From Desulfobacteraceae bacterium (GTDB lineage: Bacteria > Desulfobacterota > Desulfobacteria > Desulfobacterales > Desulfosarcinaceae): a stretch of DNA of 64,000 nt. The notes under the pieces are model-generated. The model had not been told where the DNA came from. It made no database searches and worked only from the letters and a program-made list of their open reading frames with translations. Positions within the stretch are counted from its first letter, which is position 1; each line of letters begins with the position of its first letter. Where the stretch lies: the NCBI GenBank assembly GCA_013003715.1, contig JABDIN010000043.1:1-64000 (forward strand), in the 5' to 3' direction. The position numbers were made by a program, and so were the translations under genes. Shown one piece after another: positions 7,398-24,315 of this stretch.

Positions 7398-7697
7398 CGT
7401 CACTTCCTTTTTATCTACTACCTTTTTATCCAATGATAAGGCCCTTGTGCTATGAAATGATAAATGCTTTGGGTCGTCCGCACCGTAAACGAGATATAAG
7501 GTTTATGCGCTTCTCTGTAAAGCCCCGATTGTTTTTTCCAAAACCCAGTCCCTTTAGGTTATAACAACTCTGACAATCACCGGTATGGAATTACAGGCAT
7601 ACCAATTAAGGCGATATTACATTTTTTACCTGTTGATTTTTCTGAGTATCTGGTGTTTTTATATATGACATTATAACAACTCCGAAAATTATTTGGA
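7398..7697. promoter_or_regulatory. Divergent promoter region between cinA and the FecI-type sigma gene, with direct and inverted repeats
   Basis: Non-coding, AT-rich. Two copies of a 19-base motif, TTATAACAACTCTGACAAT at 7559-7577 and TTATAACAACTCCGAAAAT at 7671-7689, match at 17 positions in the same orientation, 112 bases apart. Between them is an inverted repeat, GGTATG (7582-7587) and CATACC (7598-7603). The second direct repeat ends eight bases before the putative sigma start, so it may be part of a promoter or operator. No convincing sigma-70 hexamer pair was identified. Confidence 0.45.
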
Positions 7698-8417
7698 ATG
7701 CAGGGTACCCGAATTTCGATTGATTACGTTACACAATCAGGGATACCTATTCTTTATGAAACTGCACTCTCCGCCGAGACCAGCAATTCATGCGGAATAC
7801 AGTGGCATTGCTCGCAATGGATGGAAGAGCGTTACACAGAGGTAAACGGATTGAGACCAGCCGGCAGTGAAGTGGATTCATACAATTGTGATTCAACCAC
7901 CATACCTGAAGCGGATGTTGAAGCGATTGTTGGTGCTGTCTATACCAAATACCACTTATGGCTGCACAGTTTTCTGGTAAACCGGCTTGGATCGCGGCAG
8001 GATGCGGATGACATCGCCCAGGAAGTATATGTACGCCTGATTCGACATCGTCGCATCGAGACCCTGAATCCCTCATTTTCGCTGTTGCGCACCATTGCAT
8101 CGAACCTGCTGAAAGACAGGTTCAGAAGCCAGCAGGCACGCTCTGCCAATGCCCACATTCCCTTTGATGACGCCAACCTGAGGGCACAGGACGCGTCACC
8201 GGAAGAGATCTTGACATCAAAAGAAGGCGTGGAAATGCTGACCGGGGTATTTGAGTCACTCAACAAAAACTGCCAGCGGGCATTTGTGTTTCACCGTTTC
8301 AAGGGGTTGACCTACGAGCAGATTGCAACGGAAATGAATATATCCCGGGATATGGTCAAGAAGCACATTTCACATGCGTTGAAGCAATTTCGTAAAAAAA
8401 TCGGAGCATTACTATGA
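7698..8417 (+). CDS. ECF RNA polymerase sigma factor, FecI type
   Basis: Extracytoplasmic-function sigma factor expected to direct RNA polymerase to uptake genes. Sigma region 2 covers about residues 80-150, with DADDIAQEVYVRLIRH for core and -10 contacts. Region 4 lies near 195-236, with FKGLTYEQIATEMNISRDMVKKHISHAL as its helix-turn-helix. The first 40 or so residues are not sigma-like, and an internal ATG at 7821 would give a more typical length; neither start has a strong ribosome binding site, so the start is uncertain. It overlaps the FecR gene by four bases (ATGA), which points to translational coupling. The partner receptor is probably the STN-bearing TonB-dependent receptor at 15673-18324, some 7 kb away on the opposite strand. 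Confidence 0.9.
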   Translation: MQGTRISIDYVTQSGIPILYETALSAETSNSCGIQWHCSQWMEERYTEVNGLRPAGSEVDSYNCDSTTIPEADVEAIVGAVYTKYHLWLHSFLVNRLGSRQDADDIAQEVYVRLIRHRRIETLNPSFSLLRTIASNLLKDRFRSQQARSANAHIPFDDANLRAQDASPEEILTSKEGVEMLTGVFESLNKNCQRAFVFHRFKGLTYEQIATEMNISRDMVKKHISHALKQFRKKIGALL

Positions 8418-9592
8418 AGAAAAAGCATGACACCGGTGAAGTGACCGGCGAATCGCCTGCCGCGGCCAAAGCCCGCCAGTGGGTCATGCGTACCCGGTGC
8501 GGTTCCACACCCCCGGAAGCGGAAGCGGAATTGGATGATTGGCTTCGGGCAGACCCAGATCATAAACAGGAATTCGACTTGATGTCGGCGATTTGGGAAC
8601 ACACGGATGTGCTCAAGGATCATCCGATGGTTCTGAAAACACTGAATCACCGTACCGGCGGCGCAATGGCATGGCTCCAAAATTTTCTCGCAGGGTTTCA
8701 ATCCCTTCGACCAGTGGCGACGGCTGCGGCGGTTCTGCTGGCGGTTGCATGCATCTGGCTCGTTCAGTCCCTGATGACCGCGCACCAGACCTTTCAGACC
8801 GCCACCGGAGAGCAAACCATCGTACACCTTAAAGATGGCTCGAAGGTCGCCCTTGACTCGGAAACAGTGATCACGGCGAAAATCACACGATCCAAACGAC
8901 AAATCGAGTTAAAGATCGGACGTGCCATCTTTTCCGTCGCTCACGACAGAAAGAGGCCTTTTGTCGTCACGGCCGGCCATGTATCGGTCCGGGCATTGGG
9001 TACCGAGTTCAAAGTCAGCAAGAAACACGCGGATAGGATATCGGTCGCGGTGTTGAGCGGCAGTGTGCAGATCAACCGGACACCATATTATGCTGCCGTC
9101 AACAATGTTGAAACCATGATCAGGGTGGAAACCCATTCACGACAGCAACAGCAGATCAGCTCGGCAGAGATGAACCCGGCGCACGCTGAAAAAATAATTG
9201 CGTCGCAACCGAAGCCGGCCGCACGCCCGACTGTCCAGGCACAGGCCGTGCTCGATGCGGGTCAGGAGATCACGGTTTACGCCAAAGAGGCCGATTACCA
9301 TGTGACATCCGTTGATATCGAATACATGGACACCTGGAGAAGGGGACGGCTCTATTTCCGGAATGCGGCATTGGAAGATGTGGTCGATGAAATCAACCGC
9401 TATCTGGATAGAAAACTGGTTCTGGGGGATGAATTGCTCAGGGATTTACGCATCAGCATCATTTTCAATATCAAAGATCGGAACCATTTTGTCACCACCC
9501 TGGAAAAAACCATCCCGATCATCGCACAATACACGTCGAACAATAAAATAACGCTGGTGAGTTCCACCACACCCCAATGTTGCGTGAATTAG
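8414..9592 (+). CDS. FecR-family anti-sigma/transmembrane signal transducer
   Basis: Inner-membrane regulator of the adjacent sigma factor. Residues 15-75 form the cytoplasmic anti-sigma region (DUF4880-like, with ELDDWLRADPDHKQEFD). One transmembrane helix spans about 100-120. The periplasmic FecR domain follows (about 125-220: GEQTIVHLKDGSKVALDS, then VRALGTEFKV), and the C-terminal 90 residues are the STN-like receptor-contact domain, with WRRGRLYFRNAALEDVVDEI. In known FecIRA systems this part touches the N-terminal domain of the outer-membrane receptor. At 392 residues it is longer than a typical FecR (about 320) because of a low-complexity Gln/Ala/Pro linker around 245-290. Confidence 0.9.
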   Translation: MKKKHDTGEVTGESPAAAKARQWVMRTRCGSTPPEAEAELDDWLRADPDHKQEFDLMSAIWEHTDVLKDHPMVLKTLNHRTGGAMAWLQNFLAGFQSLRPVATAAAVLLAVACIWLVQSLMTAHQTFQTATGEQTIVHLKDGSKVALDSETVITAKITRSKRQIELKIGRAIFSVAHDRKRPFVVTAGHVSVRALGTEFKVSKKHADRISVAVLSGSVQINRTPYYAAVNNVETMIRVETHSRQQQQISSAEMNPAHAEKIIASQPKPAARPTVQAQAVLDAGQEITVYAKEADYHVTSVDIEYMDTWRRGRLYFRNAALEDVVDEINRYLDRKLVLGDELLRDLRISIIFNIKDRNHFVTTLEKTIPIIAQYTSNNKITLVSSTTPQCCVN

Positions 9593-9634
9593 TTCACGTT
9601 ATAATGAGTGATGCCTCCCGTGCTCACCTATGCA

Positions 9635-10507
9635 TCAAATGCCGTATATTGTTTTCAAACCTTTATTGATAAACGGTGCCACAGCAGACAGGTGGCTTTC
9701 GCCTTCCAGGACGACCTCGGTTAGTTCCAGACTCTTATAATTTCTTTCCTTCAAGGTTTTTGCCATCCAACGCATTCCTTCTAACATCCTGGGCTGCAGG
9801 AGTTTGTCAACCGCCTGCTCGCCAATATCGTCTTCAGCAGATCCAACAGACATGAAAACGTTTGCCGCAAGATCCGTGTTGACGCTGGCATATTCTTGTT
9901 CAATGGTATGGAGAATGGCGTTGTCCCACCAAATGGAAGGGCTTCCTATAATGTACCGACTAAAGGTGTCCGGACGCGTTAAAAGAGAAAACAATGCGAA
10001 CAGGCCCCCGAATGAGTCGCCCAGAATCCCGGAATCATTTGATTCCACGGGATAGTTTTGTTCTACAAAGGGTTTAAGTTCATCGCGTATAAAATCTAAA
10101 AAGGACTCTGCGCCCCCCATGATTTTCCGATAATCCGCTTGAGTCAAAAATGAATTTCCTTGTGTCTCCATAAAAGCCGGCCAGACACTAGGGGTATAGT
10201 CCCGCGTGCGCAAGGTCTGCCATTGCTTAAATCCACCGGGATAGCTAATGCCGACGATGATCATTTCATGAATTTCGTTTCCCATGGACAACAATCTGGC
10301 GATTTCCGCCAATGCGCAGAATCCGGCATTGGCATCCAGCATATACAATACAGGGTATTTCCGAACCGATGTTCCCATGGACAGGGGCAGGGAAATAAAA
10401 AGGCTATACTCCTGGTCGACTATGGATGAGGCAAAGTGTCTAAGTTGTGTATTGGGTAGGGTAACTTCCGGGTAGTCGGGCTGATGATTCTCTCCCATAA
10501 TCGACAT
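9635..10507 (-). CDS. Alpha/beta hydrolase, enterochelin-esterase/esterase-D like (paralogue 1)
   Basis: Putative esterase of the PF00756-type alpha/beta hydrolase family, which includes siderophore esterases and S-formylglutathione hydrolase. The nucleophile elbow is GDSFGG (Ser165), the active-site His is probably in GESHLSA near the C terminus, and YPVLYMLDAN is the usual early strand. The ATG at 10507 is preceded by AAGGAG with good spacing, so I prefer it over an upstream in-frame start at 10537. No signal peptide: cytoplasmic. It resembles the gene at 13032-13901 and belongs to the minus-strand hydrolase/transporter group downstream of the TonB-dependent receptor. Ester hydrolysis of an imported ligand is plausible but unproven. 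Confidence 0.82.
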   Translation of the reverse strand: MSIMGENHQPDYPEVTLPNTQLRHFASSIVDQEYSLFISLPLSMGTSVRKYPVLYMLDANAGFCALAEIARLLSMGNEIHEMIIVGISYPGGFKQWQTLRTRDYTPSVWPAFMETQGNSFLTQADYRKIMGGAESFLDFIRDELKPFVEQNYPVESNDSGILGDSFGGLFALFSLLTRPDTFSRYIIGSPSIWWDNAILHTIEQEYASVNTDLAANVFMSVGSAEDDIGEQAVDKLLQPRMLEGMRWMAKTLKERNYKSLELTEVVLEGESHLSAVAPFINKGLKTIYGI

Positions 10508-10741
10508 ATTCACTTCTCCTTTTTTTGGTTTGGCCATTTTTTTGAGGTGGCTTTTAGGGTTTCTATCGGGGATGGCTGAAACCTAAGAATCAATTAAATA
10601 GAGGGATCGGAATGTTTTCCCAACAGCTCACCCTTAATGCCTTGTTGGAGCGAAGCGTAAATCCCGCCGGGGCATATGAATGCCTCGAACCAAAATTCAG
10701 GCATAACTCCCCGACCCCGGAAAAAATTAAGAACTGAAAAA

Positions 10742-12103
10742 TCATTTATTAAGTATCGATGCCCGTTCCGAAAGCGATTCAATCCGCTTTTTGATAATCG
10801 CCTGCCGGTGCCGGTCGATGGGAAAAAACCAGGCGAGTATGGCGACAATGAGAAATAAAATCATGGGTATCGCACCGGCTGTCAGTTTGATCCCTATGAT
10901 TTCTGTGGCAGTGTGGACTTTTGCCGTGGCGTCATATTTAAATAATCCAAGAATCAAGAAACCGACCCCACCACCGATGGCGGCATTCGTTTTCATCACC
11001 AGTTGCCAAAAGCTATAGTATTGGGCGGAACGGCTTATGCCGGATTTAAGGGTGTCATAGTCTATCACATCCCCCAGCATGGACATGGGGCCGACCATAC
11101 CCGAAGCATAAAATGCCATGGCACCGGTATAGATCACCAGCATAAGAATAAAAGCGTTGGGACCGGGTTCAATAAAAAAGATTGCCGGGAAAAAAAGCGC
11201 GCCAATGAAAGAGCCCACCGCCCATACCTTGTGCTTGTTGAACCGTTTCATCATATTCAGCCAAAACGGCATAGCCACTAGAATGATAACAGAGGTAGAT
11301 ATCATGATATACGTATAACTCCCCCCGATGAGTAAATACGTATCAAAAAACAGGAATCCGATGGATCCGAACAACCCACCGGCGAGACCATTGAGAAGAA
11401 AACAGGTAGCCAGATGAACGAACGGCTTATTGTGTATAACTGAAGAATAGAGCTCTTTGAGAGAAGTAGATTCCTTAGTGGAGATATCTTTTGGCTCCGC
11501 AACTAGCCATAGGGGTAAAATTGTTAATGGAGGCAGAATGATGATAATTATCCATGCCACATACTTCATTACCTGGGGAGTAAATTCAGAGGTGGGCAGA
11601 AATGGAAGCAACGGGATTGCTCCAAAAGCAATACTTCCCACAATCATAAAAATCTGCCGGTAGGTAATAATACGCGTCCGTTGGTGATAATCCCGGGACA
11701 ACTCCACCTGCCAGGCCGAATACGGAATGTCCATCATAGTCATAAAGAGGTAAAACAGCATGAACCACACCGTGAAGTAGACAACCCCCACATTTTCAGG
11801 TGGCACAAAGAGTTTATAGGCGCCAAAAAGCAGAAGACAGGATCCAAGAAACATCCAGGGTTTTCGGCGCCCGAATCGCGACCTGGTATGATCCGACAGA
11901 TACCCGATGAGCGGATCGGTAGCTGCATCAAACAATCGTGAAATCATGAGTATCGTTCCAATGACCCCAAGGCTGAGCCCGAAATCTTTGGCATAAATAC
12001 CCGGTAAAATACCATTGATAGGCCCATGCAGTATTGATGTAATAAAAGCAGGAGCAGAGAAAGCCACAAGTCTGGGAGCTGATATTTTTGGTGTATTCCG
12101 CAC
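10742..12103 (-). CDS. GPH-family (glycoside-pentoside-hexuronide) cation symporter, MFS fold
   Basis: Polytopic inner-membrane transporter with about 12 hydrophobic segments and 453 residues. The early sequence DAATDPLIGYLSDHTRSRFGRRKPW is the characteristic GPH/MelB cation-site loop and cytoplasmic motif, and MDIPYSAWQVELSRDYHQRTR is the second family signature. Known members couple Na+ or H+ to sugar or glycoside uptake; some relatives take other organic ligands. It lies between the first esterase and the M55 aminopeptidase on the same strand, so it probably moves the receptor's ligand, or a fragment of it, across the inner membrane. Substrate not deducible. Confidence 0.87.
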   Translation of the reverse strand: MRNTPKISAPRLVAFSAPAFITSILHGPINGILPGIYAKDFGLSLGVIGTILMISRLFDAATDPLIGYLSDHTRSRFGRRKPWMFLGSCLLLFGAYKLFVPPENVGVVYFTVWFMLFYLFMTMMDIPYSAWQVELSRDYHQRTRIITYRQIFMIVGSIAFGAIPLLPFLPTSEFTPQVMKYVAWIIIIILPPLTILPLWLVAEPKDISTKESTSLKELYSSVIHNKPFVHLATCFLLNGLAGGLFGSIGFLFFDTYLLIGGSYTYIMISTSVIILVAMPFWLNMMKRFNKHKVWAVGSFIGALFFPAIFFIEPGPNAFILMLVIYTGAMAFYASGMVGPMSMLGDVIDYDTLKSGISRSAQYYSFWQLVMKTNAAIGGGVGFLILGLFKYDATAKVHTATEIIGIKLTAGAIPMILFLIVAILAWFFPIDRHRQAIIKKRIESLSERASILNK

Positions 12104-12145
12104 AATATTCCTTTCAACGGTTTGAGATCTCAGGTGAATGGCTAT

Positions 12146-12946
12146 TTAATTAACAAACATTAACAATTTCAATACATTAAAATAGTCATCCGTGCTGAAT
12201 GAAATGGTCTTGGTATCCTTCAATACGGCACCCGGATAAAAGGAAGATCTGTAGGCATCCTTAAAGTCCATATACTCGAGTTCTACATCGAAGTATTCCG
12301 GGAGCTCGGGTTTTCGGGCGACGGCGTCCCCTGTCAGGGACATGCGGGCGGCATCCTTGATTTTATCAACGGCCAGTTGCGGATGAATCGAAATCGTTGA
12401 CCCGCCGACACCTCTTTTTACCGGAGCGGTTTCAATCATGGGTTCAAAAACCTTGGCATCGTCGCAGATCCCGTGGTCTCCGGAGATGAACACCACCGGC
12501 ACCTGATGCAAGGCAGCCGTATAGGCATTGATGAGAAATTCGGATGCGAGAGTCCCATTGATGTTGATGGCCGCGAAACTGCGGCTGCTGATGGTATGCG
12601 CCAGGGGATTCCGGTCACTCCCGGCCTTATCATGGTACCCCACCATCATGGCCGCATCGAACGAGTCGTCGATTCCCTCCATCATCAGGTAAGGATGGCC
12701 GCTCCATCCCCGGATGACTTCAACGGGTGTCGGCAGTTCTGAAATGATGATATTCCGGGCAGAATTATGGGCGTCTTTGACCACGATTTCAGTGGCGCCG
12801 GCGTCCAGTGCGCCTTCACAGGAGCCTGCGACCTCCAGGGTCATGCGTTTTTTGAAATAGGAATAGTCCGGATGTTCGTCCGAGCATTCTTTCCAGTCAT
12901 TGACGCCGGCCACTCCTTCAATGTCGGCACTGATAAATACTTTCAT
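12146..12946 (-). CDS. M55-family D-aminopeptidase (DppA-like)
   Basis: Zinc-dependent aminopeptidase related to Bacillus DppA, which removes D-amino acids from the N terminus of peptides. The metal-binding set is visible: Asp8 and Glu10 (ADIEG), His60 (KDAHN), His105 (GYHDKAG) and Glu136 (LASEF), close to the DppA positions 8, 10, 60, 104 and 133. Length 266 residues, close to DppA (about 274). No signal peptide: cytoplasmic. A Shine-Dalgarno-like AAGGAG lies just upstream of the ATG. The GPH symporter and esterases around it suggest that the imported ligand contains a D-residue or a related amide, or that cell-wall peptides are processed. Confidence 0.92.
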   Translation of the reverse strand: MKVFISADIEGVAGVNDWKECSDEHPDYSYFKKRMTLEVAGSCEGALDAGATEIVVKDAHNSARNIIISELPTPVEVIRGWSGHPYLMMEGIDDSFDAAMMVGYHDKAGSDRNPLAHTISSRSFAAININGTLASEFLINAYTAALHQVPVVFISGDHGICDDAKVFEPMIETAPVKRGVGGSTISIHPQLAVDKIKDAARMSLTGDAVARKPELPEYFDVELEYMDFKDAYRSSFYPGAVLKDTKTISFSTDDYFNVLKLLMFVN

Positions 12947-13031
12947 CTGCTCTCCTTGTTATACGCCGGTCCACGGCGTATTTCCGGTCCTCCGGTTCTA
13001 TCCCGTTCAAGAATCCGGGATGCGAACCTGC

Positions 13032-13901
13032 CTATTTGATCGGGCCCCAGAGTTTTCGAAGCCCCCAACTCAATAAAAACGGCGGCACTGAATTATGGGT
13101 TTCACCGGAAAAAATTTTACTGAACAGCGTAAGCGAGGGATAACGGCGAAGGCGAAGGGTCTGGGCCATTCTCACCATGCTGCCCACAAGATCCCCGGCA
13201 GCCGTGAAGATGTTGTCTACTTCCTTCTCGCCGCCACCGAAAAATATCGAGACCGGCAAGTCGTCGTGTGCCGACGCATATGCCTCTTCCATTTTAAATA
13301 TCTCGAATTCACCATCGTTGAGGACAGGACTGCCGCAGATGTATTTGGCAAAGGCACCCGGTTTGGCAAACAGGGCATATCCCACAAACAATCCACCCAG
13401 GGAATGGCCGCAAAGTCCCTGGTCATTTTCGTCCACACGGTAATCCCTTGCCATGGCAGGCATGATCTCATCCGTCAGAAAATCAAGAAACAATGGTGCG
13501 CCGCCGGACTTGAAAACGACACCCACCGGAGACGGCATTAGTTTTTCCATGACCTCCGGACCAAGCCCCTTGAAGGATTGTATTTCATTGGGTCCGAAGT
13601 CGTGGGTTCTTCGCCACCCGAATTCCATGGGGGAAGCCTCACGAGGGCAACCCACAGAGACAATAATCATTTCCGGTATTTCACCACCGGAGGAGAGTAG
13701 CTGTGAAACCCCCACGGCCATCTCAAAACTCAGGGAACCATCCATGAGGTAAAGCGCCGGATATTTCTTTTTTGCATAGTGATAAGACGGTGGCAGGGCG
13801 ATCTGAATTTCATATTCCCGGTCAAGCTTGGATGACGGCATCCGTTGCGGCGGCTCAATGATCATGGTGTGTGGCGGCATATTCGTATTTGAGATACTCA
13901 T
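13032..13901 (-). CDS. Alpha/beta hydrolase, enterochelin-esterase/esterase-D like (paralogue 2)
   Basis: Second esterase of the cluster, 289 residues. It has YPALYLMDGS in the early strand, nucleophile motif GHSLGG with Ser167, and GETHN near the C terminus as the likely catalytic His. It aligns along its length with the protein at 9635-10507 (LDREYEIQIALP versus VDQEYSLFISLP; EIPEMIIVSVG versus EIHEMIIVGIS), so the two arose by duplication. The elbow changed from GDSFGG to GHSLGG, which may mark different specificity. AAAAGGAG before the ATG supports the start. No secretion signal. Confidence 0.82.
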   Translation of the reverse strand: MSISNTNMPPHTMIIEPPQRMPSSKLDREYEIQIALPPSYHYAKKKYPALYLMDGSLSFEMAVGVSQLLSSGGEIPEMIIVSVGCPREASPMEFGWRRTHDFGPNEIQSFKGLGPEVMEKLMPSPVGVVFKSGGAPLFLDFLTDEIMPAMARDYRVDENDQGLCGHSLGGLFVGYALFAKPGAFAKYICGSPVLNDGEFEIFKMEEAYASAHDDLPVSIFFGGGEKEVDNIFTAAGDLVGSMVRMAQTLRLRRYPSLTLFSKIFSGETHNSVPPFLLSWGLRKLWGPIK

Positions 13902-13982
13902 GGGAAAAACTCCTTTTCGTGGGTTGGACTTTTGAATATTAATCCAATTTTTAGCCTCACAGTTTTATATCAGTTCCTTGTT

Positions 13983-15521
13983 CTAAATCCTGATAAATTC
14001 GACATTGAGTGCACGTGGAACACTTATATACATTCTGTCATTTTCAAACTTTATGTTGGGGATGGTTTCGGGAACAACCATGCTGAAAAACATACCATTG
14101 TCGTATTTCAAGAATGGTATTTTACCGATTTTGTTATTACACAGAATCAGTTGATCATTGGTCACCACCACGTCATGAACCGAGTCAAACTCAATACCGA
14201 TATATTTTCCGGCAACCGACCTGTCCCCGGGTTCGAGGGGAACTCGTTTTATCCGTGTACAATTCAGGATATTTCCATTATCATGAATGGATAATTCTCC
14301 AGTTTGGGAAACAGACATTTCTATATCCAACCGAGGAACAGCCAGGGTGCCATCGGTCTTTTCAAAAATCTCCATTTTCATCCCCATGGCGGTCAAAAAA
14401 GTACCATCCTCTGTTTTGGCAATGGGGTAGACTGCAGCCGATTTTTCGATATAATAAGTACCCGACATATCGGTATCCCCATCAACTTTCTCATAATTAG
14501 AACCGTCATCCGGAAGATCGAGGGTGATGTCCAGAACCTTTTTTCCATATTCCTCGGGCAGGAAATCGGCGCTATTTGAAAGGAATACGACCCCCAGATG
14601 ACGATCCGGAATCAATTGAATAAGCGCCCTGTAACCTGAATCCGCCCCACCATGCCGGACGCGTTCGACCCCTTTATACGCATCCAGTTCCAGACCAAAA
14701 CCATACCCGGTTTTATATCCGTTTTTACACACATGGGGCAGAAAAGCCGTGGCCACGATTCCCTTTGGAAAGACCTGAGGATTGAGCAGTTCTTCAGCCC
14801 ATTTCATCATGTCACCAACGGTCGTGAAGAGATTGGTGCTGCCGTATTCGGATTGAAGAATCGGATAATTTGCTACTTCTTCATTGGAACACCGGTAAGC
14901 TTCTGCGCGATTTTTAATCAGCTCGAAATTCTTGTCGTGAATAAACGAGTGGGTCATCCCCAACGGCTCGAATATCGTTTCATCAAGGAATTGTCGAAAT
15001 GATTTACCGGTAACCACCGCCACGATTTCAGCCAACAGGCAATAGGCAAGGTTGTTGTACATGTAGAAGGTGTCCGGTTTAAAGTTCAGAGCCTTTTGTT
15101 TTGCCGTCATGATCAGGCTCAATTCCTGTGTGAAGATATCTTCCATGCCGATGCCATTGATCATCTGGAAGGCGATATTGCTGCGGAGGCCGCTCACATG
15201 GTGCACCATATGTCTCACGGTAATGGTGTGTTCGAACTCCGGAAAGTAGTCGAGATATTGCCGGACCGGTGCATCGGGATCGATTTTCCCCGCTTTAACG
15301 AGCAGCAGAACGGCAAAGGCGGTGAACTGTTTCGTCACTGAACCAACCTGTAAAACGGAATCAAGACTGAGGGGTATTCCATACTCAAGATTCGCCATGC
15401 CGAACGCCTTGGTATATTCCATGTTGCCGTTTCGGGTTATGCCGACAATTACACCGGGTTTGTCTTTTGTCTTAAATCCGCTGAAAATCTGGTCGAGCTT
15501 TTCTTCAATGATTTTATCCAT
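13983..15521 (-). CDS. Serine hydrolase, class C beta-lactamase/D-aminopeptidase (S12) family
   Basis: Penicillin-binding-fold hydrolase. Catalytic motifs are SxxK as SVTK (Ser61-Lys64 from the chosen start), YxN as YNN in FYMYNNLAYC, and a HxG-type third motif in VRHGGADSG. The N-terminal 340 residues are the catalytic domain; the remaining 170 form a beta-rich extension similar in layout to D-aminopeptidase DAP and to esterases of this family. There is no signal peptide, so it is probably cytoplasmic and not a resistance beta-lactamase. I chose the ATG at 15521 because AAGGA lies seven bases upstream; ATG 15539 and TTG 15578 are weaker alternatives. It is the first gene after the receptor on this strand. 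Confidence 0.85.
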   Translation of the reverse strand: MDKIIEEKLDQIFSGFKTKDKPGVIVGITRNGNMEYTKAFGMANLEYGIPLSLDSVLQVGSVTKQFTAFAVLLLVKAGKIDPDAPVRQYLDYFPEFEHTITVRHMVHHVSGLRSNIAFQMINGIGMEDIFTQELSLIMTAKQKALNFKPDTFYMYNNLAYCLLAEIVAVVTGKSFRQFLDETIFEPLGMTHSFIHDKNFELIKNRAEAYRCSNEEVANYPILQSEYGSTNLFTTVGDMMKWAEELLNPQVFPKGIVATAFLPHVCKNGYKTGYGFGLELDAYKGVERVRHGGADSGYRALIQLIPDRHLGVVFLSNSADFLPEEYGKKVLDITLDLPDDGSNYEKVDGDTDMSGTYYIEKSAAVYPIAKTEDGTFLTAMGMKMEIFEKTDGTLAVPRLDIEMSVSQTGELSIHDNGNILNCTRIKRVPLEPGDRSVAGKYIGIEFDSVHDVVVTNDQLILCNNKIGKIPFLKYDNGMFFSMVVPETIPNIKFENDRMYISVPRALNVEFIRI

Positions 15522-15614
15522 CAAGTTGTCCTTGTTCATACCATCTGTAAGTTTAAAGGTTTCGAATCTTTCTCTCAAGGATGAAAAGTCTTCATAGAAT
15601 CACTGAAAACAGCA

Positions 15615-15640
15615 GGGAGATCTCCGAATTGAGATCTCCC
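15615..15640 (-). terminator. Intercistronic hairpin between receptor and serine hydrolase genes
   Basis: Perfect nine-base stem, GGGAGATCT (15615-15623) with AGATCTCCC (15632-15640), loop of eight. Read on the minus strand it follows the receptor stop codon and is followed by TGCTGTTTTC, a poor T-run. It may be a partial terminator or an mRNA-stabilising hairpin that sets receptor expression above that of the downstream hydrolases. Confidence 0.6.
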
Positions 15641-15672
15641 CAGTGGTCTTCCGATCATAGGAATGGTTTATA

Positions 15673-18324
15673 TTAGAAATTATAGGTGAACTGGGCACCG
15701 ATAGTACGCGGAGTGTTGCGCACCCATCCTTGCTGTGGCAGATCATAAGTCCCACGCATTTCCGCCCGTTCATCCGTCACATTATTGGCAAAGATGGAAA
15801 ACCGCCAGTTCTCTTTCATTACACCTGCCCGCAAACCGATGGTTTGATACGAATCCAACACCGTTTCATCTTCGGCAGATGTCTCAATATCCTCAACACG
15901 GTCATCCACATATTGAAAGTCCGCACCGACAAAACCGTTAAGTTCTCCCTTGATGGGAAACGCATAATCGGCAAACAGCGTATAGGTCCACTCCGGTGAA
16001 AACGGAATCGTCGCACCCTTGGGAATGAATCCGGCAGCAATGGGCGTTTCTTTCGAGATTTCCGCTTCATTATAAGCCGCATTGAAACCCAGGGTCAGGC
16101 CGATAAGCGGTTGCGCCAAAAGTTCAAGCTCAACACCGGAGCTTTCGGCTTCACCAGCGTTGACGACAAAGGTCTGGCCCAGGCTGCCCCTATCGAGCAC
16201 CTGGATATCATCCCAGACAATATAATAATAGGCGAGATTTGTCCTGAGCCGGCCGCCCAGCCAGTCGCTCTTGATCCCAACTTCGTAATTATCGGTACTA
16301 TCCGATTTAAATTCGGTGTTTACATCTGCACCACCACCGAAGGCCGCTGCCCTTGCATTGCTGCCGCCGGGACGGATGCCTTGTGTAAACTGGGCATAAA
16401 GCATGGTGGCATCAGTGGGATTATACTTGACTCCCAGCTTATACAGCACATCTTCCTGATCAATATTGCTGATAGTCTCCCCACCCACCAGAGCAAATGG
16501 ATTGGGCGCTTGTCCGGCTGTCAAATACGTGGAGTCTCCATCAATCTCTTCCCGGAACCAACGGGCACCACCGGAAAGCGTAAGCTTTTCGATAAACGTG
16601 TAATCCAGCTCGCCAAACAGGGCGATCTGCTTGGATTCCTGTTTAAAGTCGGAATCAAAGATGGTTTCACCACCCGGGAGTCCAAGATTTGATCGTACGG
16701 AACCGAACTGTTCGTTTCCGAGATACGTTCTGTTATCAATTTTACGTTCACGATAGAACACACCAGCTACCCATTTAAGAGCATCCGTGTCATCGGAAAC
16801 CAGACGAAATTCCTGGCTGAATACCGTGGTATCCAAAGTCATGTCCTGTTCCGTGTAAGGCGAGCTGTCTATAAGTCCCAACATTGAGCCAAAATTAAAA
16901 TTATACCCGGCTATCAATTGATTTGCTAAGCCATTGATGTATGCAAAATCCATCATGGATGAATGTTCCCGGTCAAAATAGGAAGTATTGGATACCAGCG
17001 ACGCCCAGTCCAGATCTAAATCCGCATTGAGGGTATACAGGATATAGTCGTCCTCATACCACTGTTTGTTGGGAGTTTCCCTGAAATACTCCATATCCCC
17101 GTATAAATCGGAATCAAACGCATTCCCACCACCATCCGTGTTCTGGTAGAGAATACCGGGAGTGATTTCCAGTCGAGGAACAGGCTTGAACCGGACCACA
17201 GCACGGATATTTCCGAGTTCGCTGTCATTGGTATCTTTATCACCGGAATTCACATCGTCCGAAAATCCGGCATTGCTGCTGAAGCTTCCGGATAAACGCA
17301 TGGCCAGCTTGTCATCCATCAGGGGCACATTGATCACCCCATTGGTCTGATAATTGAATCCATCGCTCTCTTCTGTCTGGGAACCCACCAATTGGACCTT
17401 GCCTTCAAATTCATCGAACTGGGGCTTTCGGGTGATCAGGCGGACGGTTCCACCGAGAGACCCCTCACCGTATAAGGTGCCCTGGGGTCCCTTGAGTACC
17501 TCGATGCGTTCCACGTCAAACAAGGCCACATCCGGAACAAAACTTGGACTGGATATGGGCGTATCGTCCAGGTAATATCCCACTGTTGCGGAAGAGGTTT
17601 GCTCGCTCGTCAATGTCGTTATACCCCGTATCTGCAGGCTATTCATGCCCATACCCTGAACGGACACCGTAAGTCCGGGGATTCGGTCGGAAAAATCCTC
17701 CATACCCACCGCGGCCATCTCTTCCAGTTTGTCTCCGGTCAAGGCCTGGATACTCATGGGTGTATCCTGGACCTTGGTTTCGCGCTTACTGGCGGTAACA
17801 ACGGTTTCCTCCAGAACAAAATCCTGGCTCAGATCGTCTGAACCGGATTCGCCATCAGCAGATGCAGCAGATGCAGCCGGTGCTTCTGCAAGGAGCACTT
17901 GATCCGGTTGACTGTTTTCCACCAGCGGAGGAGGGCTTTGCGGCTCCTTGGAGTTCAGGTTCCCGGGCTCCCCTGAACCGTTTTTTCGAATGGAAACCGT
18001 TGTATCGCTGGTAAACTCGTATACCAGGCCAGTTCCATCCAGCATGATATCCAGGGCCTGCTCCGGTGTGTATATCCCCGAAATCGCATTCGCTTTTATC
18101 TGTTCAAGATCACTTACCAGGTACATCAGGCTCAGATTTGTCTTTTCTGCAAAGGCATCCAGGGCGCTGACCACCTCCTGTGACGGCAAATCGTATGTTA
18201 TCAGAACATTCTCAGCGGAAACGATTGCCGGCACCATTAGCATAATAGATAGCAAAGCCGTCATCATCATGAGATGCCTGGCTATCCCCATTGTCCGTTT
18301 CTCTGTTTTCTTGCCTCTTTCCAT
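15673..18324 (-). CDS. TonB-dependent outer-membrane receptor with N-terminal STN signalling domain
   Basis: Ligand-gated outer-membrane importer, 883 residues from the ATG at 18324, which has GAGGGAG five bases upstream. A signal peptide covers about the first 37 residues (MMMTALLSIMLMVPAIVSA). The STN/secretin-N domain follows (LITYDLPSQEVVSALDAFAEKTNLSLMYL and IYTPEQALDIMLDGTGLVYEF), which in FecA-type receptors contacts FecR. After a Ser/Pro/Ala-rich linker come a TonB-box-like ETVVTASK, the plug domain (VERIEVLKGPQGTLYGEGSL) and a beta-barrel ending in QFTYNF with the usual terminal Phe. The STN domain ties it to the sigma/FecR pair at 7698-9592. Plug and barrel resemble the large siderophore/vitamin/polymer receptor group; the ligand cannot be named. 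Confidence 0.93.
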   Translation of the reverse strand: MERGKKTEKRTMGIARHLMMMTALLSIMLMVPAIVSAENVLITYDLPSQEVVSALDAFAEKTNLSLMYLVSDLEQIKANAISGIYTPEQALDIMLDGTGLVYEFTSDTTVSIRKNGSGEPGNLNSKEPQSPPPLVENSQPDQVLLAEAPAASAASADGESGSDDLSQDFVLEETVVTASKRETKVQDTPMSIQALTGDKLEEMAAVGMEDFSDRIPGLTVSVQGMGMNSLQIRGITTLTSEQTSSATVGYYLDDTPISSPSFVPDVALFDVERIEVLKGPQGTLYGEGSLGGTVRLITRKPQFDEFEGKVQLVGSQTEESDGFNYQTNGVINVPLMDDKLAMRLSGSFSSNAGFSDDVNSGDKDTNDSELGNIRAVVRFKPVPRLEITPGILYQNTDGGGNAFDSDLYGDMEYFRETPNKQWYEDDYILYTLNADLDLDWASLVSNTSYFDREHSSMMDFAYINGLANQLIAGYNFNFGSMLGLIDSSPYTEQDMTLDTTVFSQEFRLVSDDTDALKWVAGVFYRERKIDNRTYLGNEQFGSVRSNLGLPGGETIFDSDFKQESKQIALFGELDYTFIEKLTLSGGARWFREEIDGDSTYLTAGQAPNPFALVGGETISNIDQEDVLYKLGVKYNPTDATMLYAQFTQGIRPGGSNARAAAFGGGADVNTEFKSDSTDNYEVGIKSDWLGGRLRTNLAYYYIVWDDIQVLDRGSLGQTFVVNAGEAESSGVELELLAQPLIGLTLGFNAAYNEAEISKETPIAAGFIPKGATIPFSPEWTYTLFADYAFPIKGELNGFVGADFQYVDDRVEDIETSAEDETVLDSYQTIGLRAGVMKENWRFSIFANNVTDERAEMRGTYDLPQQGWVRNTPRTIGAQFTYNF

Positions 18325-19097
18325 GGTTCTCCCTCTCAAGATCGCGGTAATTCCGTCCCATTTGATATGCGGTTCAGTGTTTTGTTCCGGCGAAAAATGA
18401 TGCCGGCCACACACCGAAGTATCCGGACATAAACGGATCACGCCCGTGAAACCGCATCGGTATTTGCTGCTTTGCCTGATTCAATGCCGCTTTAAGATCA
18501 TGATGCATCCACCGGTACTACCTGCTGAGAATTGTGAATGCATCGCCATGAGAATTCCGACAAAGTGAGGTGGCAAAATTTCATTTTAAAAGATACCTCC
18601 TTTCCTGAAACTCAGCCGAATACAAATGTCGCAGGGTTAATTGTCATCGTTATTATATGGCGGCTCACATATGATGTACACGGATTTGACTATCCTGAAA
18701 TTGATGGTACACTCCACCGGTACGACTTTTTATCGGTGAATAAAAAGTTTTGTCTTTTTTACTGAACGCACTAACCGCAGGCGCATACACCCAGGCGAAA
18801 ATTATCCGGGTGCCGATGGGATAGGTTTTCTTGATCGCTTGTTAGGATATAACGTAGCGCAACCGATATCGGGTACCTTTTTTATATGGACATCTTTTCA
18901 GACGGCATAAAAATCAATAAATCTCCGGCACAAGACCTAAAATGAGGTACCCTAAATTGGATTTATGCCGTTATATAAGTAGTGCCCGTCCAGAGATGGA
19001 CACCAAGCACGACACTCATGAAGATTAAACTTGACGACACGTAAAAGTGTGAAGGAAATAGTTTTATAAACGGGTATGAAAGGACAGGAAGGGGAAA
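18325..19097. promoter_or_regulatory. 773-base intergenic region between the receptor and the TonB2 operon
   Basis: No gene could be supported here. It should hold the divergent promoters for the receptor (minus) and the TonB system (plus). GGGTACCT lies near 18868 and AGGTACCC near 18943, and GACGGCATAAAAATC (near 18901) is partly complementary to GGATTTATGCCGTTA (near 18959). These may be operator-like or simply chance in AT-rich DNA. I found no clear FecI-type promoter by eye. Confidence 0.4.
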
Positions 19098-19856
19098 ATG
19101 GTAAAGTATATCATTATTGGTTTCGCGGTATCGTTGTTTACTATACAGCCACCCGCTTATGGTGAAAACACGACGACGGTCCAGGAAAAAATGACGGGCG
19201 CCATAAAAACCGAATCCACGGCTCAGTCGGCGGCAGACGATTGGAACGGTACAAAGAGTGATCTGGTCAATGAAATCCGGGATCTGCAGACGCGTCTGGT
19301 ATGGCTGCAATACCAGAAAAAGAAGCATGAAATTTATGTCCAGGGCGTAAAGGATAATATCGCTGATCTCGAGGCACGGAAACTGGAGGCCAGAAAACTC
19401 CGGGAGAGCCTTGAGCCCTATCTGGAAGAAGTTGTGGGCCGTCTGGAGTCATTCATCCCCGATGACCTTCCGTATTTATCGGAAGAGCGGCAACAGCGTC
19501 TCTATTTTTTAAAAAACACCCTCAATGATTATCAATTGGATCTGGGTGAAAAACTCCGCCGCGTCTACGAAGCGCTAAGCGTGGAAGCGACTTATGGCAA
19601 AATGGTAACCAGTAGTGACGAAACCCTTGCTCTTTTTGGCGTTGACACGGAGGTTAAGGTGTTTCGGTTGGGGCGTCTGGCCATGTTCTATCAGACACTG
19701 GACGGCAAAAATGTCGGTTTCTGGAATCCCCGGAATCAAAAATGGGAACCCCTGACCAGGGACTTTGTCACGGTGATCCGGCATTCTCTTGAAATGGCAC
19801 GGCGAGAGCGTACGGTGCAGCTGATTCAACTACCCATAGGAGCTGAAATACAATGA
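19098..19856 (+). CDS. DUF3450 family periplasmic TonB-system accessory protein
   Basis: Secreted coiled-coil protein, 252 residues, with an N-terminal signal peptide (about residues 1-22, cleavage after AYG). A long charged helix follows (KSDLVNEIRDLQTRLVWLQYQKKKHEIYVQGVKDN), then a globular part with FIPDDLPYLSEERQQRL and a C-terminal region rich in aromatic residues (AMFYQTLDGKNVGFWNP). DUF3450 genes are typically the first gene of TonB2/TonB3-type clusters, and here the gene precedes a TtpC-like gene with a four-base overlap. AAGGGG precedes the ATG. Its molecular role is unknown; it probably acts with the periplasmic domain of the next protein. Confidence 0.88.
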   Translation: MVKYIIIGFAVSLFTIQPPAYGENTTTVQEKMTGAIKTESTAQSAADDWNGTKSDLVNEIRDLQTRLVWLQYQKKKHEIYVQGVKDNIADLEARKLEARKLRESLEPYLEEVVGRLESFIPDDLPYLSEERQQRLYFLKNTLNDYQLDLGEKLRRVYEALSVEATYGKMVTSSDETLALFGVDTEVKVFRLGRLAMFYQTLDGKNVGFWNPRNQKWEPLTRDFVTVIRHSLEMARRERTVQLIQLPIGAEIQ

Positions 19857-21289
19857 GATATACCAAATGTTTTTTGATAGTTGCGGTGTGGCTGGCCGCT
19901 GGCCTTTTTGCTTTCACTGGTTTCGCCGGTGCCGAGGACAAATGGACGAACGTCAAATCCGGCATCGATCAGGAGGCGGACCGGGCAGCCAAGGATGCAG
20001 AGTTGACCCGGGACCTGATCAATAAAGACCGGAAGACGCTCATGGGAGAACTTTCCGTTCTGAAAAAACAAATCGAAACGGAACAGGCCGCGCTTGATAG
20101 CCTTAAAGGCGAATTCGATGAACTGAGCAAACAGGAAGTCGACCTTAAAATAGAGCTGGAAAAAGAACACCGCGAGGTGGCGGATGTGGAAGGCAGCGTC
20201 CGGGGTGCCTTGAAAGACGCAGCATCCATGGTCCGCGACAACCCGATCACGGCGCAGAATCCGGAGCGAAGCCGGATGGTCAATACCATGATCGACTCAA
20301 CGAAATTTCCGGGTATGGCCGGAATTGAGAAAGTGGTCGAGCTGTATTTTGAGGAATTATCATCCGGTGGGAAAATTGTGCGCTACGACGGGGAATTCAT
20401 CGGCAAGGACGGCAAAGTCACTGCCGGTGAGATAATCCGTGCCGGTCGGTTCACCAGCTACTATCGCCTGCCGGACGGCACCGTGGATTTTCTGAAACCC
20501 GACGCCAGCGGTGAAAAATTATTGGCCGTAGCCGGTGAAGCGCCGGGTGCCGCCAAAAAAGTCATATCGGCGTACTTCGACAAAAAGGACACCATATTGC
20601 CGGTGGATCCGTCGGGTGGTGCGGTCTTTGCCCAAATGACCAAAAAAACGAATTGGGGCGAGCTGTTCGAACAGGGTGGGATTCTCATGTGGCCTATCCT
20701 GATAGTTGCCGGCATCGCTATACTGCTGATGATCGAGCGGTTTGTCGTACTGGGCAGTACCACATCCAACACGGACAAGATCATGGGAAAACTCAACGCA
20801 CTGGCGAAAACTTCGAACTGGAAAAAATGTCTTGAGATCTGCGAATGCAATCGCCGGGTGCCCACCTGCCGTATGCTTACCAGTGCGCTAAAGCATATCG
20901 GCCACACCCAGGAGGTCCTTGAAAATACGCTACAGGAGGCTATTCTGCGCGAAATGCCGCGCCTGGAAAGGTTTTTGCCGACCCTCAGCGTACTGGCTGC
21001 CATCGCACCGCTGTTGGGTCTTCTGGGAACCGTCACCGGCATGATCAATACCTTTAAAGTGATAACTGTTGTGGGTACCGGTGATCCGCGCATGATGTCC
21101 GGCGGCATCTCCGAAGCGCTTTTAACAACACAATTCGGGCTGGCCGTGGCGATTCCCATCATGATGATTCATCACCTCCTGGAGCGCCGGGTGGACAAAA
21201 TTACCGGCGATATGGAAGAAAAAGGCACCGCGTTTGCGGTCACCTTGCTCAAGACCGGGGCCGTGACCATGACGGAAGAAGAGGCGTAA
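19853..21289 (+). CDS. MotA/TolQ/ExbB proton-channel protein with N-terminal periplasmic coiled coil (TtpC-like)
   Basis: TtpC-type component that links TonB2 to its ExbB2/ExbD2 motor in Vibrio-like systems. Signal peptide at 1-27; coiled coil about 30-115 (LMGELSVLKKQIETEQAAL); a periplasmic region to about 270; membrane helix near 277-300 (ILMWPILIVAGIAILLMIER). The MotA/TolQ/ExbB core carries two more helices, LPTLSVLAAIAPLLGLLGTV and the segment around TTQFGLAVAIPIMM. At 478 residues it is more than twice the length of plain ExbB because of the periplasmic half. It overlaps the upstream DUF3450 gene (ATGA), and the next gene starts two bases after its stop. Confidence 0.92.
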   Translation: MRYTKCFLIVAVWLAAGLFAFTGFAGAEDKWTNVKSGIDQEADRAAKDAELTRDLINKDRKTLMGELSVLKKQIETEQAALDSLKGEFDELSKQEVDLKIELEKEHREVADVEGSVRGALKDAASMVRDNPITAQNPERSRMVNTMIDSTKFPGMAGIEKVVELYFEELSSGGKIVRYDGEFIGKDGKVTAGEIIRAGRFTSYYRLPDGTVDFLKPDASGEKLLAVAGEAPGAAKKVISAYFDKKDTILPVDPSGGAVFAQMTKKTNWGELFEQGGILMWPILIVAGIAILLMIERFVVLGSTTSNTDKIMGKLNALAKTSNWKKCLEICECNRRVPTCRMLTSALKHIGHTQEVLENTLQEAILREMPRLERFLPTLSVLAAIAPLLGLLGTVTGMINTFKVITVVGTGDPRMMSGGISEALLTTQFGLAVAIPIMMIHHLLERRVDKITGDMEEKGTAFAVTLLKTGAVTMTEEEA

Positions 21290-21290
21290 C

Positions 21291-21896
21291 GTGCAGAGCG
21301 ATTTCTATCTAAATATGCTCGAGCACCTCAAAACCGGTGGCTGGGTAATGATACCGCTGGTGGTGGTCTCGATAATTATGGTGTTTCTGATCATCGTTAA
21401 ATTCCTGGAGATGCGCACCTTTACACAAGGTGATATCTCGGTCGACCAATGCCTTAAAACAGCCGGTCAGCCGGATTTTTCCGCTGCCTTCTGGCAGCAG
21501 GCGATTATTTCCGGTTTCCTGCGGGGCCGGACCTTCAATGAAAGCCTCGACCGTAACATTCTCGATAGTCTCCGGCTTCGCCAGGAGGCATTTGCCAAAC
21601 GGCTTATCGGCATCATTGCGATTCTGGCGGCGGTTGCTCCGCTGCTGGGACTGCTGGGTACCGTTGGCGGTATGATCAAAACCTTCACGGTTATCTCCGT
21701 ATATGGAACCGGCAATGCCAAGGCATTGGCATCGGGTATTTCGGAAGCGCTCATTACCACCCAAACCGGCCTGGTCGTCGCCATTCCGGGGCTATTCCTG
21801 GCCAGTTATTTGAATCGCAGGTCCGAAAAGCTTTTGGCACGCATGCAGCGTTTTTGCCTTGGACTTTTAAAACAGCACCGGTCGATAAAGGGTTAA
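21291..21896 (+). CDS. exbB: ExbB proton-channel subunit
   Basis: Second MotA/TolQ/ExbB-family protein of the operon, 201 residues without a periplasmic extension. It has a first membrane helix near 15-38 (GWVMIPLVVVSIIMVFLIIV) and the paired helices IGIIAILAAVAPLLGLLGTVGG and LITTQTGLVVAIPGLFLASY. It starts at GTG, two bases after the previous stop, so translation is probably coupled. With the ExbD-like protein it should form the proton-driven motor for TonB. The TtpC-like paralogue just upstream explains the close similarity of the GLLGTV.GM segments. Confidence 0.93.
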   Translation: MQSDFYLNMLEHLKTGGWVMIPLVVVSIIMVFLIIVKFLEMRTFTQGDISVDQCLKTAGQPDFSAAFWQQAIISGFLRGRTFNESLDRNILDSLRLRQEAFAKRLIGIIAILAAVAPLLGLLGTVGGMIKTFTVISVYGTGNAKALASGISEALITTQTGLVVAIPGLFLASYLNRRSEKLLARMQRFCLGLLKQHRSIKG

Positions 21897-21955
21897 CGCA
21901 TAGCTCAGCCGAAAAAACTCAGAGAAACCACAGAAAGCCCGAAAGAGTCCTCATT

Positions 21956-22366
21956 ATGAAGAAAATTATAACACGGCAGCGCCGATCCGGGGGAACCGAA
22001 CTCAACATGGCGTCCCTGATTGATATGATATTCATTCTCCTCATTTTTTTCCTGGTGACCACCTCATTTGTCAAAGAGGCCGGTGTGGAGGTTCAGCGGC
22101 CATTGGCTTCATCCGCGGAAACAAAGGAGAAGACCAACCTGGTGGTGGCGGTTACCCACGAAGGCACCATCTACGTGGAGGGACGCACCATTGATATCCG
22201 GTCCGTTAGGGCCTATATGGAACGGTTTCTGGCGGAAACACCAAAGGGGTCGGTGGTGATCGCGGCGGACAAGGACAGCCGGACCGGTACGGTGATCCAG
22301 GTGCTGGATGCCTGTCGGTTGGCCGGTGTTAAAAATGTAAGTGTGGCAGCCAGGAGGCCTGAATGA
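21956..22366 (+). CDS. exbD: ExbD/TolR biopolymer transport protein
   Basis: 136-residue ExbD with one membrane helix near 22-42 (MIFILLIFFLVTTSF). The conserved membrane Asp lies in NMASLIDMIFIL and is the proton-coupling residue in the family. The periplasmic part has VVAVTHEGTIYVEGR, then VVIAADKDSRTGTVIQVLDACRLAG. I start at ATG 21956 rather than the in-frame ATG at 21854, because the longer version would overlap exbB and add 34 residues unlike ExbD. It overlaps the TonB gene by four bases. Confidence 0.93.
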   Translation: MKKIITRQRRSGGTELNMASLIDMIFILLIFFLVTTSFVKEAGVEVQRPLASSAETKEKTNLVVAVTHEGTIYVEGRTIDIRSVRAYMERFLAETPKGSVVIAADKDSRTGTVIQVLDACRLAGVKNVSVAARRPE

Positions 22367-23025
22367 CATTGCGGATAAACTGGATACGGCTGTCCGTAGC
22401 CCTCACCGCCACGGTGTTGATAAACGCCTTTTTATTTGCCGGGCTGCCGCTGCTGACACGGGCGACAAAAAGCGAGCGTTCCACGCCGTTCGAAAGCGCT
22501 ATCATGATAGCGCACATCAAGCCACCCAAACCGCCGGAGGAGATCAAAAAAAGGGAACTCAAAGAGCGAAAACTCAAACAGATGCAAAAACAACAAACCG
22601 ATGCGAAGGCCGCCAAACCAAAACTGGATGTATCCGAATTTGATTTTGCACCGGACATGGAAGGCGGGATCGGTGGCATGAGCATCGGCAGCATGACCGG
22701 TATAAATGGATTCAAAACCGAAATGCAGAAAATTGAGTTTGAGCTGTCCGAAGTCGACAATCCACCCCGGGTGACGCGCAGAGTGCCGGCCATGTATCCT
22801 TTCAGCGCAAAACGAAGAGGTATCAAGGGCAAGGTTCTCATCCGGTGCCTGGTGGGTATCGATGGTATCGCCCGGAAACATCGTATCATATCATCGGAAC
22901 CCGAAGGTGTTTTCGATGAAGCCGCACTTTCGGCGCTGGAACGGTGGCGGTTCAAACCCGGAATACTCGGCGGTGAACCCGTGCCCACCTGGGTTCGCGT
23001 ACCGTTTGTTTTTGAATTGAAGTGA
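22363..23025 (+). CDS. tonB: TonB-family energy transducer (TonB2 type)
   Basis: 220 residues: N-terminal membrane anchor (about 9-32, with His absent from the helix), a short Pro-Lys linker (KPPKPPEEIKKRELKERKLKQ) rather than the long Pro-rich rod of classical TonB, and a C-terminal TonB domain (PRVTRRVPAMYPFSAKRRGI, then ALSALERWRFKPG). The short linker is typical of TonB2/TonB3, which work with a TtpC protein such as the one at 19853. It ends inside a GAAGT tandem repeat. It should transmit the ExbBD proton force to the divergent receptor and possibly to receptors elsewhere. Confidence 0.92.
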   Translation: MTLRINWIRLSVALTATVLINAFLFAGLPLLTRATKSERSTPFESAIMIAHIKPPKPPEEIKKRELKERKLKQMQKQQTDAKAAKPKLDVSEFDFAPDMEGGIGGMSIGSMTGINGFKTEMQKIEFELSEVDNPPRVTRRVPAMYPFSAKRRGIKGKVLIRCLVGIDGIARKHRIISSEPEGVFDEAALSALERWRFKPGILGGEPVPTWVRVPFVFELK

Positions 23026-23042: not shown

Positions 23043-23103
23043 ATGGAGATCATCAGCCCTTCATTTGTAAAGCATAAATTCGATTATCAGAGAAATAACA
23101 CAT

Positions 23104-24315
23104 ATGAAGATTAAGATATCCCTGAGTCCCTGTTGCGGTGGTGCGATCCTTGCGGTAATGTTGTTCTGTCTCCTGGCGGCGCCGTTGCATTCATCGGAAA
23201 TCGATGTGACCAAACTACCCAAGGAAGCTGTCAAGGCGCTCTATTTAGGGCAACAGGCGCTGCAGGAAAATGATTTTGCGGCGGCAGTCGGGATTCTGAC
23301 CGAGTACATGGCCGCAGCAAAGGAGGCCATACCGCTGCCGGCCTTCCAGATGCTCGCACACGCCTATTATCAGACACCGGACCTGGAAAAAGCCCTGAAG
23401 ACGTACAAGGCGGCTTTTGAGACCTATCCCGACGCGTCGGAAATGCTGCGCAATTGGGCCATCATGGCTTATGAGACTGGTGGTTTGGAAGAGGCCGCCC
23501 GGCTTTTCGAAAAATTATACCGGGTCAAGGGCGAACAGGACAAGAAGGTTCTCTACCAGGCCGCAGGGCTCTACTTTCAGGCAGTCAATCTCAAAGAAAC
23601 CAAACGCTTGCTCACAGAACTGCTCACCTCAGGTGTTGAGCCCGAGATCAAATGGTATGAAGACATCATTGCCATCTGCATAGAGGAAAAACAGTGGCGC
23701 CAGGCGGAAAAATGGGCGACCGCATTGTTGGAACGGCAGCCGGATCGCTCCGAGTACTGGCGTTTATTGGCCCAGATTCGTCTCGATCGTGAGGAATACA
23801 GGGCAGCGGCCAGCTATCTTGAAATCGCCTACCGGTTGAAAAGTCCCCTGAAAAGTGACTGGCTCGAGTTGTCCGATCTTTACCTCTACCTGAATGCCCC
23901 GCTGATGGCCATTCGATGCATGGAAACCGCATACGCGGGTGATATACCCGAAGAACTGAAACGAAAGATCGCCAATGTCTATGCCCGTACGCAGCGGTTC
24001 GACCTGGCGCTGACCTATATTAACGAGGCCATAAAAAAAGGGCTGTCGGCCGAACTCTTTTTCGAAAAAGGCCGCCTGCTGTATGATGCCATGCGGTATG
24101 AAGAAGCGATTCAGTCGTTTAAGGACTGCGTGAAATTGGACCCCAAACACGGCCAGGCTTATATTATGGCTGGCTTTGCCACCTGGAACCTGAGACAATG
24201 GAATAATTCCCGCAGCTTTTTTGCAACCGCATCGGCGTTGCCCAAGTTTCATGATCAGGCAAACGAAGCCGTGATCGTACTTGATGATCTGATTGCCGCC
24301 TTCAGCGAAAATTAG
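23104..24315 (+). CDS. Periplasmic TPR-repeat protein of the TonB2 operon
   Basis: 403 residues with a signal peptide (about 1-31, LAVMLFCLLAAPLHSSE) followed by roughly nine tetratricopeptide-like repeats, for example ALYLGQQALQENDFAAAVGIL, MLRNWAIMAYETGGLEEAARLF and LFFEKGRLLYDAMRYEEAIQSF. TPR genes of this kind are commonly the last gene of Vibrio-type tonB2/tonB3 clusters. It starts 78 bases after tonB and ends at a probable terminator. Its partner and function are unknown; a scaffold for the TtpC/ExbB complex or peptidoglycan contact is a reasonable inference. Confidence 0.87.
   Translation: MKIKISLSPCCGGAILAVMLFCLLAAPLHSSEIDVTKLPKEAVKALYLGQQALQENDFAAAVGILTEYMAAAKEAIPLPAFQMLAHAYYQTPDLEKALKTYKAAFETYPDASEMLRNWAIMAYETGGLEEAARLFEKLYRVKGEQDKKVLYQAAGLYFQAVNLKETKRLLTELLTSGVEPEIKWYEDIIAICIEEKQWRQAEKWATALLERQPDRSEYWRLLAQIRLDREEYRAAASYLEIAYRLKSPLKSDWLELSDLYLYLNAPLMAIRCMETAYAGDIPEELKRKIANVYARTQRFDLALTYINEAIKKGLSAELFFEKGRLLYDAMRYEEAIQSFKDCVKLDPKHGQAYIMAGFATWNLRQWNNSRSFFATASALPKFHDQANEAVIVLDDLIAAFSEN

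Follow-up and report, generated by a model that had tools for sequence, protein, structure and literature searches.

What kind of extracellular compound is served by a locus that encodes a signaling receptor, a complete TonB2 motor, a symporter, and four hydrolases side by side? The locus lies in a 64,000-nucleotide stretch of DNA (positions 1 to 64,000 of contig JABDIN010000043.1, assembly GCA_013003715.1; here, the window) from a Desulfobacteraceae bacterium, and a first-pass annotation had described it as a self-contained uptake system for a ligand with ester and D-amino-acid bonds. It is a cluster of genes to sense an extracellular molecule, import it across both membranes, and cleave it inside the cell, and its parts are all of known kinds. 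We provide evidence for an intact and plausibly coregulated uptake and hydrolysis locus; its kind is known, its gene complement is unusual, and it was found in a single genome. Our leading reading, held tentatively and at a little short of an even chance, is signaled uptake and breakdown of a small peptide-like compound with ester and probably D-amino-acid (amide) bonds. That a FecIR-controlled receptor can be accompanied by catabolic genes is already an established idea.

Gene complement and layout

Open reading frame (ORF) and family scans confirmed that all genes named at the locus are intact and in the families named, including every family of the first-pass annotation. Its span, 7559-23025, needs correction: 7559 is the start of a 19-nucleotide (nt) repeat and of no gene, and 23025 cuts off the last gene of the TonB2 operon, which ends at 24315. 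The features are as follows.

7559-7577 and 7671-7689 (+): 19-nt element TTATAACAACTCYGAMAAT, two direct-repeat copies upstream of fecI (window motif search)
7698..8417 (+): FecI-like extracytoplasmic function (ECF) sigma factor (Sigma70_r2, r4_2; matches to FecI models score under the model cut-offs)
8414..9592 (+): FecR-like transmembrane anti-sigma factor (FecR, DUF4880, FecR_C; one transmembrane segment, 96-124)
9635..10537 (−): esterase 1 (PF00756), cytoplasmic, Bes/PfeE/IroE type (family scan, alignment; no signal peptide)
10742..12103 (−): GPH/MFS_2 cation symporter (MFS_2, E 2.5e-74)
12146..12946 (−): M55 D-aminopeptidase-type metallopeptidase, cytoplasmic (PF04951, E 6e-86)
13032..13901 (−): esterase 2 (PF00756), paralogue of esterase 1 (family scan; 34% identity to esterase 1)
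13983..15578 (−): S12 serine hydrolase, D-aminopeptidase (DAP)-like, cytoplasmic (PF00144 Beta-lactamase family, E 5.5e-55)
15613..15642 (−): strong 12-pair hairpin and short T tract in the gap that separates the receptor gene from S12 (consensus match only)
15673..18441 (−): TonB-dependent receptor with N-terminal STN signaling domain (STN E 1e-8, Plug E 1e-18, barrel E 2e-44)
18640..18658 (−, the receptor coding strand): near copy (15/19) of the fecI-upstream element ahead of the receptor gene; it overlaps a TATAAT-type −10
19098..19856 (+): TtpB-type DUF3450 protein, first TonB2 operon gene (PF11932, E 1.5e-66)
19853..21289 (+): TtpC-type protein (DUF3450-like N terminus plus MotA_ExbB; family scan)
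21291..21896 (+): ExbB2 (MotA_ExbB, E 3e-26)
21854..22366 (+): ExbD2 (ExbD, E 8e-31)
22363..23025 (+): TonB2 (TonB_C)
23104..24315 (+): TPR protein encoded by the last TonB2 operon gene, at the TtpD position (family scan; position as in Vibrio vulnificus, PMC6957404)

From 18441 down to 9635 on the − strand lie the STN receptor, S12, esterase 2, M55, GPH, and esterase 1, separated by 94, 81, 85, 42, and 204 bases in turn. This operon-like run of receptor, transporter, and hydrolases, with gaps of 42 to 204 bases on one strand, bears out the first-pass annotation, which had placed these genes together. The fecI-fecR pair (7698–9592, +) converges with the run, and the TonB2 operon (19098-24315, +) diverges from the receptor gene. 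Mechanical start calls gave TTG for S12 and GTG for GPH.

Signaling and regulation

A FecI-like ECF sigma factor adjoins a FecR with one transmembrane helix, as in FecIRA-type systems; fecR shares its first 4 bases with the end of fecI, and the earliest possible start of the fecI ORF is 7698. The receptor carries all three of STN, plug, and barrel, its STN domain scoring 35.2 bits against a cut-off of 28.4. Its true start is probably internal to the ORF, at about 18324, just ahead of the signal peptide (best 19-residue hydropathy within the first 60 residues, 2.20). Its top NCBIfam match is the siderophore receptor family TIGR01783, below that family's cut-off, and its best PDB match is FpvA.

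The upstream element connects the two regulatory halves of the locus. With up to 3 mismatches, TTATAACAACTCYGAMAAT has 3 matches in the window against 0.03 expected, of which two are the fecI-upstream copies. The chance of a 15/19 match before the receptor is about 0.0025 to 0.0045 (simulated intergenic stretches, one strand), which we treat as support and not proof because the comparison was made after the repeat was seen. Judged from sequence, the duplication of the element before fecI and its recurrence before the receptor support coregulation of the two. Its overlap with a TATAAT-like hexamer means that either a sigma-specific site or an operator at an ordinary promoter could lie here; no FecI −35/−10 consensus was found. 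The adjacent FecI and FecR and the STN receptor support the signaled uptake architecture proposed earlier.

The third match to the element (3 mismatches) lies at 48683-48701 (−), far from the cluster. Fur control was considered and set aside: the best Fur-box match near the receptor reaches 13/19, and many other sites across the window match at least as well.

The TonB2 motor

The six genes ttpB-ttpC-exbB-exbD-tonB-ttpD are all present in the Vibrio order, bearing out the earlier call of a full TonB2-type motor, and relatives have the same arrangement. The true ExbD2 start is probably internal to its ORF, beyond the end of exbB. In Vibrio vulnificus, the first and last genes of the operon, ttpB2 and ttpD2, are essential for TonB2 function (PMC6957404).

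TonB_C was found once in the source genome (5.5 Mb, 97% complete), in the TonB2 described here, and plug-domain receptors were found twice: the STN receptor and a 684-amino-acid (aa) receptor on contig C70, near which we found no recognizable TonB or ExbBD genes. The motor is therefore local but not dedicated, because the sole TonB_C found would also have to serve the contig C70 receptor. "Self-contained" is a fair description of the locus itself; "dedicated" fails.

Hydrolases and symporter

None of the four hydrolases has a signal peptide or a hydrophobic N terminus (highest hydropathy of any 19-residue stretch among the first 60 residues, ≤0.92), which argues for cleavage in the cytoplasm, following inner-membrane import by GPH. 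The symporter passes Pfam MFS_2 comfortably (250.8 bits; cut-off, 27) and scores 184.9 bits against gph TIGR00792, under the NCBIfam cut-off of 231.35.

Aligned over residues 40-416 with 1ei5, a D-aminopeptidase of Ochrobactrum, the S12 protein retains the motifs SxxK, YxN, and HxG (SVTK/SVSK, YNN/YCN, and HGGA/HGGA). We call it DAP-like and do not file it as a DAP, because its 141.5 bits against the PRK13128 D-aminopeptidase model do not reach the curated cut-off of 443. The M55 protein passes its Pfam cut-off and can be aligned with DppA (1hi9) over the full length, with the conserved acidic and histidine residues in place; its active-site residues, read by the metal and catalytic roles of their DppA counterparts, are intact, but its 143.9 bits fall short of the DppA equivalog cut-off of 430 in NCBIfam. 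Both esterases align their catalytic serine in GxSxG and their C-terminal histidine with Bes/PfeE, and in the PDB they match nothing but IroE/Bes-type esterases, the majority of which carry a siderophore-esterase name (Bes, PfeE, IroE, fungal).

The source genome holds a second M55, 51% identical, on contig C31 (9129-9929), between a MOT1-type molybdate transporter, an MFS efflux-like carrier, and BacA; no S12 or receptor gene lies near it. In two Pseudomonadota genomes, M55 relatives adjoin MTTB-type trimethylamine methyltransferase genes, which suggests that M55 enzymes act outside D-peptide metabolism too.

Distribution of the gene set

The full set was not found in 242 genomes of the order (receptor and M55 queries) or in 93 relatives (receptor query), and no equivalent set was found in 369 gammaproteobacteria (GPH query) or in 398 genomes of the phylum of genome G242 (M55 and S12 queries). 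The plasmids searched yielded no conserved cassette, and literature searches on this gene combination gave nothing relevant. No receptor relative above about 33% identity was found in the 242 order genomes or in 29 other sampled genomes of the family, and the ten genomes tested from the same family all lack M55. Elsewhere in the order, M55 neighborhoods contain no homologues of other window genes. TtpC genes occur in 78 of the 242 genomes, and in the neighborhoods read none of these hydrolases lies beside a TonB2 operon. At least as regards M55 and TonB2, the locus is not a conserved unit: in the order these two occur apart, both from each other and from any receptor of this sort, and the set occurs in no other sampled genome. 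The first-pass annotation had offered to give up its link if hydrolases were kept without receptor and TonB2 genes, and neighborhood comparison found just that for M55.

A proposed pathway and its rivals

On our reading of a peptide-like ligand, the compound would bind the STN receptor, powered by the TonB2 motor, and the signal would pass from the receptor STN domain to FecR and on to FecI, raising expression of the receptor operon. The ligand would reach the periplasm, cross the inner membrane intact via the GPH symporter, and be cleaved in the cytoplasm by the two esterases, S12, and M55 for nutrition. The hairpin between receptor and S12 is possibly an attenuator that keeps expression of the receptor above that of the enzymes. 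A peptide-type ligand with D residues leads because of partial parallels in other lineages, and these parallels help the earlier ligand proposal, which is a suggestion from context and is complicated by the resemblance of the esterases to siderophore esterases. A narrower version, a D-amino-acid depsipeptide pathway built around the cell's only TonB, in which GPH carries an intact (depsi)peptide rather than a sugar, we consider quite improbable. Several observations weigh against the peptide-like reading as a whole. Co-function rests on the arrangement in one genome, because the set was seen in none of the others sampled; the order's M55 relatives sit in unrelated neighborhoods; and a hairpin sits between the receptor and S12 genes. 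By sequence comparison, S12 and M55 score far under the curated D-aminopeptidase cut-offs, and the esterases appear most like siderophore esterases. In the M55 tree, finally, the window protein falls outside the Rhizobiaceae clade found beside S12.

The ester-cleaving half of the locus has another possible use, that of a foreign siderophore with lactone esters and D residues, such as a catechol–D-cationic amino acid–serine trilactone. Here GPH would import the ferric siderophore, the two Fes/IroE-like esterases would open the backbone and release iron, and S12 and M55 would trim the peptide. This is a live rival because the closest solved relatives of both esterases are siderophore esterases, and FecIR/STN systems classically serve iron carriers; the TIGR01783 and FpvA matches of the receptor point the same way. 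Between 2443 and 28787, however, there is no siderophore-binding protein, Fe-siderophore ABC permease, or ferric reductase. The best Fur-box match near the receptor is just 13/19, the nearest plasmid homologues of the receptor sit beside peptidases or catabolic genes, and we know of no GPH-type siderophore importer. We judge siderophore use somewhat unlikely. The neighbors may also be partly fortuitous, a FecIR-receptor unit having come to lie beside an ordinary TonB2 operon, with the hydrolases and GPH working in another cytoplasmic pathway such as D-peptide or peptidoglycan turnover. That many genomes of the order have a TonB2 operon with no neighbors of this kind, that M55 occurs alone, that a hairpin follows the receptor, and that the set is unique among sampled genomes are all consistent with this. 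Six same-strand genes with small gaps and a convergent fecR, the element common to fecI and the receptor, and the recurrence of receptor-S12 and receptor-GPH adjacencies in other lineages argue the other way, and we think a partly fortuitous grouping unlikely. The remaining weight, beyond the peptide-like, siderophore, and fortuitous readings, goes to other explanations.

Because the genome yielded only two TonB-dependent receptors and a single TonB, much of this cell's active uptake across the outer membrane would be aimed at one ligand. The bonds of that ligand can be read from adjacent enzymes, making a gene-first ligand search unusually tractable, and likewise the testing of GPH carriers as peptide or siderophore importers.

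Neighboring genes

Directly downstream of the TonB2 operon, at 24698-27781 (+), lies a 1027-aa fusion of APH kinase, M23, and class-III aminotransferase domains. A Shinella plasmid carries a 42% identical homologue beside an S12-P1-M55 operon. In the other listed records with both genes, a long distance separates them, so we left the fusion out of the pathway. Near the right end of the window, a phage SU10-type portal protein (61184-63082, +) probably marks a prophage edge.

Comparison with known systems

One partial parallel is in Sphingobium sp. V4 (NZ_CP081002.1), where the gene next after a TonB-dependent receptor encodes a D-aminopeptidase-like S12 hydrolase (28% identical to its window counterpart across 392 columns), with an MFS importer and a gene of the DgcA family (N-acetyl-D-Glu racemase/L-Ala-D/L-Glu epimerase) next in line. 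Its carrier, however, is MFS and not GPH, its DgcA racemase replaces M55 and the esterases, its receptor match lacks STN, and no homologue of FecIR or of the TonB operon lies nearby. A gammaproteobacterial genome has the order TonB-dependent receptor-GPH-GST-amidohydrolase-cyclophilin-DPPIV/S9. On Sphingobium yanoikuyae plasmids, FecIR stands beside a receptor whose match to the window receptor extends into the N-terminal region, and two S10 peptidase genes come next; among plasmids, the nearest homologues of the window receptor adjoin peptidases or catabolic genes. S12 adjoins M55 in Ensifer, Shinella, and a Firmicutes metagenome-assembled genome, with dipeptide-type or other ABC transporters. 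The Rhizobiaceae loci (Ensifer, Shinella) share adjacent cytoplasmic S12 and M55 hydrolases with ours, but they rely on ABC import and lack a TonB receptor and esterases. Their M55 is of another clade, so function transfer from them is weak.

With FecIRA-type signaling the locus shares a FecI sigma factor, a transmembrane FecR, and an STN-domain receptor; it differs in that fecIR converges with the receptor operon, about 9 kb from the receptor start, and in having hydrolases and an MFS-type symporter in place of the ferric-citrate ABC transporter. The esterases occur as two paralogues without siderophore ABC transport genes, unlike Bes, PfeE, and IroE, with which they share the fold family, the GxSxG serine, and the C-terminal histidine. 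Whereas the TonB of the window is the only one found in its genome, is divergent from an STN receptor, and has no identified Fur site, its operon matches Vibrio TonB2 (ttpB2-ttpC2-exbB2-exbD2-tonB2-ttpD2; PMC6957404) in all six genes and in their order.

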